Shown piece after piece: positions 1-34,807 of a stretch of DNA of 34,807 nucleotides. The DNA is from Haloparvum sedimenti. GTDB lineage: Archaea; Halobacteriota; Halobacteria; Halobacteriales; Haloferacaceae. The DNA lies in contig NZ_LKIR01000068.1 of assembly GCF_001462205.1 (NCBI RefSeq), positions 36,229 through 71,035 of the forward strand, in the 5' to 3' direction. How positions within the stretch are numbered: the stretch's first letter is position 1; each line of letters opens with the position of its first letter. A model generated the notes under the pieces. It had not been told where the DNA came from and made no database searches. It saw nothing but the letters and a program-made list of their open reading frames with translations. Both the position numbers and the translations under genes were made by a program.

Positions 1-210
1 TACCGCAGGCAGCCCGGACCGTCTCACGACGGCCGGTCGAGCCGGCTGGGGCTTTCTGGGTGTTGCTGTCCAGATCAGCAGGATCGACAGCAGTGTCAAA
101 AACGTCGTACAGAGAGCCGGCTGGGGCTTTCGAGATGGTGCTGTCCAGATCAGCAGAATAAGCAACGGAGACAGAAGATCCACAACCGTAGTACAGAGAG
201 CCGACAGTAA
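1..210 (-). repeat. Dispersed structured repeat, copy A (partial)
   Basis: Read on the minus strand, this stretch carries two good 5' modules and a third degenerate one of the element also found at 13853-14320 and 18780-19345. The helix-forming string (plus-strand TCGAGCCGGCTGGGGCTTTC) lies at 37-56. A second copy starts about 75 bases to the right (near 112-131), and a decayed one lies near 190-205. Each good module is preceded on the minus strand by a small hairpin, TGCTG-loop-CAGCA. The copy leaves the window at base 1 in the same apical sequence as copy D, so its 3' half is not visible. It follows the 3' end of the membrane protein gene at 256. Nothing else fills 1-255. Confidence 0.8.
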
Positions 211-5032: not shown

Positions 5033-5129
5033 CCCCACGATGGAGTCGCCCCCGAGTTAATGTTCGTGAGGGTCGGTGAGACGAGAAACTGCGATACTGG
5101 GTCTACTACGTGCGTTGTTCCATTTTTCT

Positions 5130-5510
5130 GTCAGAAGATGGTGTTTCTGTGTCTGTTGCAGGTCCTGTTGATCGGGACGGCACCACCCAGAAAGCCCCAG
5201 TCGGCTCGCCCGGCCGCGCCTCGCTGCGCTCCTCGCTCTCCGCACAGCCCGCTGCGGTGCTTACGTCGTCGGGGCCGGATCGAGCCGACTGCCCCTTTCA
5301 GTCCCACCCACCGCACCGCAGGCCTCGCACCTCCCCAGCCTCGGCGGCGGCGCGGCCGCGAAAACCGCACCGCAATGCGGCCGCGCCGCCGCCTCCCTCG
5401 CGCGGTCGCGGCGACACAGGGTCGCCGCGGCGCGCGCCGACAGCACAGCACTGCAACCGCAACGCTCCGCGACCGCACAGCACCGCACCGCCACCAGTTT
5501 CAGAAAAGCG
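5130..5510 (+). repeat. Dispersed structured repeat, copy B
   Basis: This copy fills most of the 630-base gap between pyk and the M20 gene. It has one 5' module. Helix 1 is GAAAG-CCC-CAGTCGGCTCG at 5190-5208 pairing with TCGAGCCGACTG-CCC-CTTTC at 5280-5299. Helix 2 is 17 bp, 5343-5359 with 5377-5393, followed by CTCCCTCGCG. A C-to-T change in the 5' arm of helix 1 relative to the other copies is matched by a G-to-A change in the 3' arm. A further hairpin, GCGGCGAC-loop-GTCGCCGC, lies near 5408-5430. The tail is rich in CACCGCA-like words. Open frames here are not conserved as protein between copies. I see nothing but the M20 promoter in 5511-5631. Confidence 0.85.
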
Positions 5511-5600
5511 AGGTGTCTGAATCGGTCTGCATCACTCAGTATCGCTCTCAAGAATGCGGACTATCGGCAATTTCGGTCGTGCAGTCTGCCGGTGAGGGAA

Positions 5601-13852: not shown

Positions 13853-14320
13853 TTCGAAAGCCCTCGACGGCTGTCCGGACGGCGATTTTTCTGTTCCTGT
13901 TGTCGGTCATGCTGATCGGGACGGCACCACCCAGAAAGCCCCAGCCGGCTCTCTGTACGATGTTCCTGTTGTTTATCCTGCTGCTGGGGCCAGCAACACC
14001 CAGAAAGCCCCAGCCGGCTCGACCGGCCGCGGCACACTCTGCGCTCCTCGCTCTCCGCAACACCCGCTGCGGTGCCTGAGACGGAGTCTCAGACTAGCGA
14101 GTGCTTCGCTCTCGCGTCGCTTGAGGCGCCGGGGCCGGATCGAGCCGGCTGCCCCTTTCAGTCCCACCCCGCACAGCACCGCAACCGCGCCGCAACCGCA
14201 GCCTCGCACCTCCCCAGCCTCGGCGGCGGCGCGGCCGCGGAACAGCACCGCACCGCAGGCGGCCGCGCCGCCGCCTCCCTCGCGCGCGTTCCTCGCGCGC
14301 GCCGACCGCCGTGGATACTG
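13853..14320 (+). repeat. Dispersed structured repeat, copy C
   Basis: This complete copy occupies the 643-base gap between pabC and the Rieske gene. Its 5' modules start at about 13856 (decayed), 13934 and 14003. Helix 1 pairs GAAAG-CCC-CAGCCGGCTCGA (14003-14022) with TCGAGCCGGCTG-CCC-CTTTC (14140-14159): 5 bp, a symmetric CCC/CCC internal loop and 12 bp. It then extends by CCGGCC/GGCCGG after a bulged A. The apical part holds CTGAGAC-GGA-GTCTCAG. Helix 2 is a perfect 17 bp, 14222-14238 with 14259-14275, then CTCCCTCGCG and a GCGCGCG-TTCCT-CGCGCGC hairpin. I see nothing else in 14321-14365. Confidence 0.87.
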
Positions 14321-18779: not shown

Positions 18780-19345
18780 CCGTGCTCATTTCTGGTCCTG
18801 CTGCTTGGAACAGCACCACCCAGAAAGCCCCGGCCGGCTCTCCGCACGACGTTTCTGCGACTACTGTTGATCCTGCTGATCGGGACGGCACCACCCAGAA
18901 AGCCCCGGCCGGCTCGACCGGCCGTCGTGAGACGGTCCGGGCTGCCTGCGGTAGCGGGCTGCCGGGCTGCGACTCACGGGCTCCCGCTCGTTCCTCGTGG
19001 GAACGCGGCACGCTCTGCGCGCTCGCGCCTCTCCACACAGCCCGTCGCGAGTGCTTGTCTGGCGAGACGGTCCGGGCTGCCTGCAGTGGCGGGCTGCCGG
19101 GCTGCGACTCGCTGACTCTCGCTCGGCAGGCTCGCGAGAGCGGCGCCGGGGCCGGATCGAGCCGGCTGCCCCTTTCAGTCCCACCCCGCACAGCACCGCT
19201 CCGCAGCCTCACGCCTCCCCAACCTCGGTCGCGGGCCGGCCGCGAAACCGCAACGCTGCGCGAGAGACAAGCTCTCGCTGGCCTCCGGCGTGCGGTAGCG
19301 CGCCGGAGACACCGCAGCGCGGCCGGCCCGCGGCCTCCCTCGCGC
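18780..19345 (+). repeat. Dispersed structured repeat, copy D (long form)
   Basis: This is the longest copy, in the 771-base convergent gap before the MATE gene. It has two 5' modules. Helix 1 pairs GAAAG-CCC-CGGCCGGCTCGA (18898-18917) with TCGAGCCGGCTG-CCC-CTTTC (19157-19176), with one G-T wobble. The apical part contains a 47-base direct duplication (18929-18975 and 19064-19110). Each half holds a GCCTGC/GCGGGC hairpin with loop GGTA or AGTG. Helix 2 is 18 bp (19227-19244 with 19318-19335). Three pairs differ from copies B and C on both strands, and one is a wobble. Inside it are two hairpins, 19260-19278 and 19283-19308. The 15-bp tandem array follows directly. Confidence 0.87.
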
Positions 19346-19465
19346 GCGCCGACCGCATCAGCGCCGACCGCATCAGCGCCGACCGCATCAGCGCCGACCG
19401 CATCAGCGCCGACCGCATCAGCGCCGACCGCATCAGCGCCGACCGCATCAGCGCCGACCACATCA
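19346..19465 (+). repeat. 15-bp tandem repeat, eight units
   Basis: GCGCCGACCGCATCA is repeated eight times head to tail. Seven units are perfect and the last has one G-to-A change. It is attached to the 3' end of repeat copy D. The first unit grows out of the CGCGCGCCGACC that also ends copies B and C, so the array probably arose by local expansion of the element's end. There are no spacers, so it is not CRISPR. Translation in any frame gives only five-residue repeats such as VGADA. Confidence 0.95.
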
Positions 19466-34624: not shown

Positions 34625-34807
34625 GCCGGGGAGAATGCGGTGCTGATTCGGATGCGGTGCTGGTGCGGTCGCGGTGCGGGACGGTGCTGTGCTGTTGGCG
34701 CGCGCGAGCAACGCGCGCGAGGGAGGCGGCGGCGCGGCCGCCTGCGGTGTCTCCAGCGCGCTACTGCACGCTGGAGGCCAGCGGGACGCGGTTTGTCCCG
34801 CGCTGCG
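34625..34807 (-). repeat. Dispersed structured repeat, copy E (partial)
   Basis: Read on the minus strand from the window edge, this is the 3' half of a long-form element. It has the two inner hairpins (plus-strand 34781-34787 with 34795-34801, and 34751-34758 with 34769-34776), the right arm of helix 2 (34725-34741), CTCCCTCGCG, a GCGCGCG hairpin, and a tail rich in CAGCACCGCA words down to about 34630. Its left arm and helix 1 lie outside the window. I see nothing in 34581-34624. Confidence 0.82.

Follow-up and report, generated by a model that had tools for sequence, protein, structure and literature searches.

A long-range helix at positions 5190-5299 of the window, the stretch of 34,807 nucleotides from Haloparvum sedimenti analysed here, exists and is under selection for pairing, which we consider close to certain. 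This helix 1 forms the closing part of a folded module of about 110-250 nt that recurs across the Halobacteriales. The module consists of a 5-bp outer helix P1, a symmetric loop that is purine-rich on the minus strand, and a hypervariable, compensated inner helix P2, which is capped by an exchangeable apical domain of type I or type II, or by almost none. As far as Rfam and the literature were searched, the family of folded intergenic repeats to which it belongs is previously uncatalogued.

Helix 1 in the window

Three copies of the helix (B, C and D) had been described in the first-pass annotation of this DNA, and their features are collected in Table 1. In copy B, P1 pairs GAAAG with CTTTC, and an internal loop with CCC opposite CCC leads to P2 of 11 bp, the twelfth position (C5209 opposite T5280) being a mismatch. 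The proposed inward continuation of CCGGCC with GGCCGG was found in this copy beyond the bulged A5279. The compensated change from C-G to T-A that had been reported for copy B is the pair T5201-A5288, and it recurs in 7 copies of the genome. Copy C pairs as described, with a P2 of 12 bp, and the change from A-T to G-T in copy D is borne out by its second pair, which is G.T. The paired segments had been placed 70 to 240 bases apart; pairing at long range holds, however this range was slightly too narrow, the distance from arm to arm being about 100 (B), 147 (C) and 269 (D) bases. With at most one mismatch, CAGAAAGCCCC has 7 matches in the window, where 0.3 are expected.

Table 1. Positions of the repeat copies and their parts in the window
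Feature	Position	Strand	Remarks
Partial further copy, opposite orientation	1..176	+	two 5' units; 3' arm just beyond the window
Imperfect inverted repeat at the left end of the copy B unit, CGATACTGGGT	5092..5102		common to 8 copies
5' unit preceding the 5' arm of copy B	5148..5189		repeated unit of about 75 nt, 1-5 tandem copies in most elements
Copy B, P1 arm 1	5190..5194	-	GAAAG on plus, CTTTC on minus; P1 supported by the C-G switch in genus g2
Copy B, internal loop CCC	5195..5197	-	GGG on minus
Copy B, P2 arm 1	5198..5208	-	11 bp; includes T5201 of the T-A pair
Copy B, inward extension CCGGCC	5210..5215	-	
Copy B, type I apical domain	5216..5272	-	CGACGACGTAAGCACCGCAG..GAGGAGCGCAGCGAG on minus; type I alignment and its fold
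Copy B, extension partner GGCCGG	5273..5278	-	followed by the bulged A
Copy B, P2 arm 2	5281..5291	-	A5288 compensates T5201
Copy B, internal loop CCC, 3' side	5292..5294	-	GGG on minus
Copy B, P1 arm 2	5295..5299	-	CTTTC on plus
Conserved tail 3' of copy B, AGTCCCACC	5300..5308	-	most of GGGTGGGACT on minus
Copy B, 3' domain	5343..5393	-	17-bp GC stem 5343-5359 / 5377-5393; sequence varies between copies, complementarity kept (by inspection)
Right imperfect inverted repeat, ACTCAGTATCG	5534..5544		
Copy C, two tandem 5' units	13892..14000		spaced by 69 nt; the second continues into the 5' arm (14001)
Copy C, arm 1 (P1, loop, P2)	14003..14022	-	R1 covariance-model match 13997-14177, minus, E 1e-8
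Copy C, arm 2 (P2, loop, P1)	14140..14159	-	same R1 match, 13997-14177
Copy D, arm 1	18898..18917	-	
Copy D, arm 2	19157..19176	-	R1 model detects the 3' part only, E 0.01
Fifth copy, 3' domain, opposite orientation	34691..34749	+	

Copies in the Haloparvum sedimenti genome

The genome containing the window is a 3.24-Mb draft. It holds 152 matches to the 5' arm with at most one mismatch (reversed-pattern control: 3) and 98 matches to the 3' arm GCCCCTTTCAGTCCCACC with at most two mismatches (reversed-pattern control: 0). When a copy is scored as paired if its 5' partner forms at least 8 of 12 pairs, 81 of the 98 3'-arm copies qualify. Among the other 17, many are compact or truncated or lie over an assembly gap; they include copies with fused arms (L066, L076, L097), one at an assembly gap (L046) and one with a farther partner (L031). 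Copies with missing or non-complementary arms are thus not the frequent case that would speak against the helix. Pairing is kept with compensated changes among the genomic copies, which agrees with the covariation expected by the first-pass annotation. At position 4 of P2 the 81 paired copies read CG 59 times, CA 11 times, TA 7 times, GC and TG once each, and two carry other combinations; on the minus strand the path of change is G-C to G.U to A-U.

The layout of most elements is a single 3' arm combined with one to five 5' arms in tandem. The spacings of the 5' units (69, 75, 78 and 81) hinted at codons; coding units were rejected, as spacings of 68, 73, 77 and 80 occur too. The two outer inverted repeats around copy B agree at 10 of 11 positions and are present in only 8 of the 98 copies of this genome, copy B included. 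No target-site duplication is obvious by eye beside copy B.

Further features accompany the copies. Within the 3' domain, at 5343-5393 and 14218-14280 in the window and at equivalent positions of other copies, another GC-rich stem is flanked by CCTCCCCARCCTCG and CTCCCTCGCGCG and takes many very different yet complementary sequences among the copies within one genome. Seven copies (L067, L070, L073, L081, L083, L087, L097) have a second conserved 3' extension, CGGACGTTTTTCAGCGAT..GACTCCCGCCGTGAGTGCAG, which trails many copies without the CGATACTGGGT ends. Small hairpin modules (CGCGGGACAAACCGCGTCCCGC.. and AAAATCGGAGATTTTCGAGCAGCC..) form insertions at constant places in 7 and 11 of the 98 copies, either in the loop of the 3' stem (L036, L046, L079, L093, L104) or at the junction (L042, L061, L076, L096, L101, L105). 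Just past copy D, at 19346-19465, the window contains eight near-perfect head-to-tail copies of the 15-bp unit GCGCCGACCGCATCA. A tRNA-like gene lies directly behind the degenerate copy L099, about 160-250 nt beyond the 3' arm.

Covariation of the stems and apical domains

P1 appeared to be constant (GAAAG/CTTTC) before the genomes of one genus, g2, were inspected. In 22 genomes of this genus, CAAAG/CTTTG occurs at 1306 places, the outermost pair being C-G and not G-C, and single-sided forms of either kind are absent from these genomes. Among the collected copies, the outermost pair is G-C in 172 and C-G in 27, and in none is it mixed. As the 1306 C-G copies are accompanied by no single-sided form, it is proven that the outer helix is maintained by pairing, and this is the clearest single result of the analysis.

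In the relatives, P2 forms 9.8 of 12 pairs, against 7.2 with shuffled partners, and next to GAAAGCCC it comprises 48 distinct helix sequences in which pairing is kept. Both types of apical domain covary as well. The alignment of 43 type II copies on the minus strand yields 37 pairs, 22 of them with double changes versus 12 after shuffling; 96% of the cells are paired, compared to 85% when shuffled and about 40% when slid, and none of 500 shuffles matches the observed value on any of five measures. For type I, aligned from 37 copies including copy B of the window, 21 of 29 pairs show double changes. There are also conserved unpaired positions, namely CTAT/ATAT, GGG/GGG and the tail GGGTGG(G)ACT.

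The folded strand

The mismatches within the helices are unevenly distributed. A set of distinct helices gathered without favouring either type of wobble contains, in plus-strand reading, 57 A/C mismatches, which become G.U on the opposite strand, and 18 G/T mismatches, the nominal p of 7e-6 ignoring the kinship of the copies. The P2 position changed in copy B behaves alike, with CA 11 times and TG once. Because of this excess, the minus, G-rich strand is probably the one that folds; the mismatch test is blind to the difference between RNA and single-stranded DNA. The wobble counts of the type I RNAalifold structure were left out of the comparison, since its optimum shifts P1 into a G.U register. 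A simple replication-strand bias is absent in genome G033, whose 65 copies are divided 34 to 31 between the strands. Read on the minus strand, the module is GGGTGG(G)ACT-GAAAG-GGG-C, P2 and the apical domain, then G-GGG-CTTTC.

Strongly palindromic, GC-rich stems such as these may also be kept complementary without any selection, by template switching (quasipalindrome correction) or by gene conversion between copies, and several GC stems of the 3' domain do seem to be swapped as blocks. This process predicts neither the strand bias of the mismatches (57 versus 18) nor conserved unpaired loops, tail and apical motifs, and in all 1306 copies of genus g2 the outer pair is exchanged while the neighbouring bases are unchanged. 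We regard it as a very improbable account of the family.

The internal loop

The CCC/CCC loop of the plus strand corresponds to GGG facing GGG on the minus strand. In the 81 paired copies of the genome the 5' arm reads GAAAGCCC in 80 and the 3' arm CCCCTTTC in 78. Over all loci collected, GGG/GGG is found in 158 of 172 copies with GAAAG/CTTTC or GAAAG/CTTTG, and a second state, GGC..GGG (GGCGA/GAGGG on the minus strand), in 11-12 of these 172. The second state occurs in the type II copy L309 of the own genome, in other genera, and on plasmids such as pNRC100, pNG600 and pJ7-1. The first-pass annotation had taken the loop to be identical in all three copies; within the genome the loop is near-invariant, whereas it is not invariant in the wider family. 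The contact with a protein or ligand that the annotation suggested for the loop is a conjecture.

A strict three-tier G-quadruplex, built from four G3 tracts between P1 and P2, looked attractive because the first sample had been selected on the tail. It was downgraded, as the tracts are not kept in all copies: among 31 copies unselected on the tail, 10 have GGGnGG and 4 lack both tracts, while two-tier tracts persist in most. A two-tier G-quartet or a purely G.G junction may form instead.

Distribution

The 3' arm is present in 265 of 392 Halobacteriales genomes, at 0 to 138 copies per genome. A pattern in which only GAAAGCCC and CCCCTTTC are fixed, 80-110 nt from each other, detects both arms at this common spacing in 206 of the 392 genomes and in 66 of 95 genera; its reversed control gives about 6 matches overall. 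A covariance model built from type II copies recovers copies B and C of the window on the minus strand (E about 1e-8); when 148 genomes sampled from the phylum were searched with it, all matches listed lay within the Halobacteriales. Genomes of genus g2 hold about 17-134 diverged, structurally intact copies each, and the copy number drops to zero in near-complete relatives. Tail-to-tail inverted pairs of elements, with 25-45 nt between the 3' arms, were seen in several genomes (L135, L137, L192, L194, L307).

Rfam (4227 families, gathering cut-offs of the covariance models) has no match in the window, and in 8 loci of relatives the sole matches above the cut-off are a tRNA and an S15 leader next to the element, with one further match below threshold. 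Searches of the literature by core sequence and keyword found no description of this repeat family. A viral origin was rejected: exact GCCCCTTTCAGTCCCNCCC is absent from 2.9 million viral contigs, and there is no match in phages.

A plasmid relative upstream of an SSB-like gene

Copy B used as a BLAST query matched 29 plasmids of haloarchaea. The first 16 were inspected, and in 12 of them, as well as in pNRC100, pNG600 and pJ7-1, the module starts a conserved, hairpin-rich stretch that ends just upstream of a gene of about 290 amino acids. The C-terminal part of its product resembles the OB fold of archaeal SSB/RPA (NF005553, E 7e-14 to 1e-18, below the cut-off of the model). A 541-bp version of the stretch is found, whole or in part, in 167 plasmid records. 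Examples of the stretch of about 540-600 bp, which is not in Rfam, are L257:2501-3077, L258:2444-3022 and L303:3919-4634 (pNRC100, about 146383-147098), among others.

This RPA/SSB-like leader (pNRC100 146465-147069) opens with a type I module of the same fold. In contrast to the dispersed copies, it extends over about 540 bp with further hairpins, occurs mostly once to a few times per plasmid and is fixed before one gene; its loop is often in the GGCGA/GAGGG state. The SSB-like neighbour is a link of the family to single-stranded DNA, and not a proof.

Genomic context and possible nature of the element

Gene calls rest on a simple rule of GC content by codon position, under which single assignments may be wrong. 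By this rule 34 copies of the own genome lie between convergent genes and 7 between divergent ones, and relatives show a weaker convergent excess (21 versus 14). Between co-directional genes the two orientations count 18:15 in the own genome and 16:23 in the relatives, with no clear bias. The convergent excess of the own genome speaks for a cis-acting 3'-end element of the neighbouring genes, such as a terminator or a processing or stability hairpin, which would be retained for ending transcripts. However, the balance of co-directional copies (18 versus 15), the weak excess in relatives and the non-syntenic site of copy B, which adjoins a pyk gene while 26 pyk loci of other genomes contain no element, render this function quite improbable; cis-regulation was rejected for lack of an orientation bias toward co-directional genes.

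The family may instead be a structure-dependent, non-autonomous dispersed element, a reading for which recognition by shape and mobility are both inferred and to which we give about an even chance. Its spread and upkeep would require that a folded single strand, by the mismatch data preferably the minus strand, is recognised, presumably through its shape, the conserved loop and the tail and not through the sequence of the stems; the element would be tolerated mainly in intergenic DNA. Such a reading is suggested by copy numbers of 0-138 per genome, the lack of orientation bias and of synteny for copy B, the tandem 5' units, the tail-to-tail pairs, the outer repeats shared by 8 copies, and the fact that some copies are plasmid-borne. 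Against it, no pair of filled and empty sites was found, no target duplication was established, and no transposase emerged as a partner. The strong divergence of copies within a genome would fit long-standing functional loci as well.

Two candidates for a partner were rejected. As for a TnpB right end or omega-RNA remnant, 4 out of 30 TnpB genes have the motif at a distance of 1.5 kb or less, about as expected from motif density, and G133 is a genome without TnpB that contains 138 copies of the motif. As for dependence on a Y1 transposase, PF01797 has no match in G104, G133 and G041 (84, 138 and 56 copies), and 10 and 5 matches in G060 and G144, both of which have 0 motif copies.

The main rival of the dispersed element is a large family of structured non-coding RNA genes, transcribed from the G-rich strand and sharing a role in trans such as binding of a common protein; the compensated stems would then reflect ordinary RNA evolution. 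Covariation with an excess of one wobble type on one strand, the conserved unpaired positions (CTAT/ATAT, GGG/GGG, GGGTGG(G)ACT) and the roughly 17-134 diverged, intact copies per genome of genus g2 are in line with it. It does not account for the zero copies in near-complete relatives, and neither an AT-rich, promoter-like peak at a fixed distance upstream of the G strand nor a 3' U-run was seen. We consider it somewhat unlikely. A more specific proposal, which we deem unlikely, is a class of structured non-coding RNAs (or strand-specific single-stranded DNA signals) private to the Halobacteriales, with up to about 130 loci per genome, a junction of G.G or two-tier G-quartet type that would require molar potassium for its stability, and a connection to SSB via the plasmid version.

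In any case, the data add an order-wide, strongly covarying archaeal element that is absent from Rfam and from the literature searched. If RNA folds, a large class of haloarchaeal non-coding RNA has been missing; if single-stranded DNA folds, the element would be an archaeal analogue of attC and other sites that are recognised by their structure. With the covariance model and the exchanged outer pair of genus g2 the family can be tested directly, and Halobacterium salinarum, in standard use as a laboratory archaeon, carries a related structure on pNRC100.

Comparison with known systems

Bacterial REP/BIME and ERIC sequences are imperfect intergenic palindromes, present in dozens to hundreds of copies and often between convergent genes; REP copies retain their sequence and accompany a Y1 (RAYT) transposase. 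The present element is similar in its many intergenic imperfect palindromes and its convergent-gene excess, but differs from REP in that its stems vary with compensation and its copy number does not track Y1. The attC sites of integrons have conserved outer arms, a variable complementary stem, a terminal structure of 0 to more than 100 nt and a preferred strand. Outer arms that are kept, a variable paired stem, a variable apex and a strand preference give our element what may be a likeness of form only, and neither cassettes nor arrays were seen here. As to the terminal inverted repeats of MITEs, the imperfect outer repeats (10 of 11 positions) are limited to 8 of 98 own copies, and TnpB and Y1 were the candidates examined as parents.

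Among haloarchaeal repeats, the PATEs and SMRs of Haloquadratum are transposase-free, non-coding and dispersed, with palindromes and heterogeneous copies, and PATEs are defined by near-terminal palindromes in common with IS605-type transposons (PMC3119063). The present family resembles PATEs in being non-coding, transposase-free, dispersed, palindromic and heterogeneous, and the small hairpin modules inserted at its palindromes recall the SMR-A insertions. It is set apart from the description of PATEs in that neither TnpB nor Y1 accompanies it, that 206 of the 392 Halobacteriales genomes contain its arms, and that its stems vary yet stay complementary.
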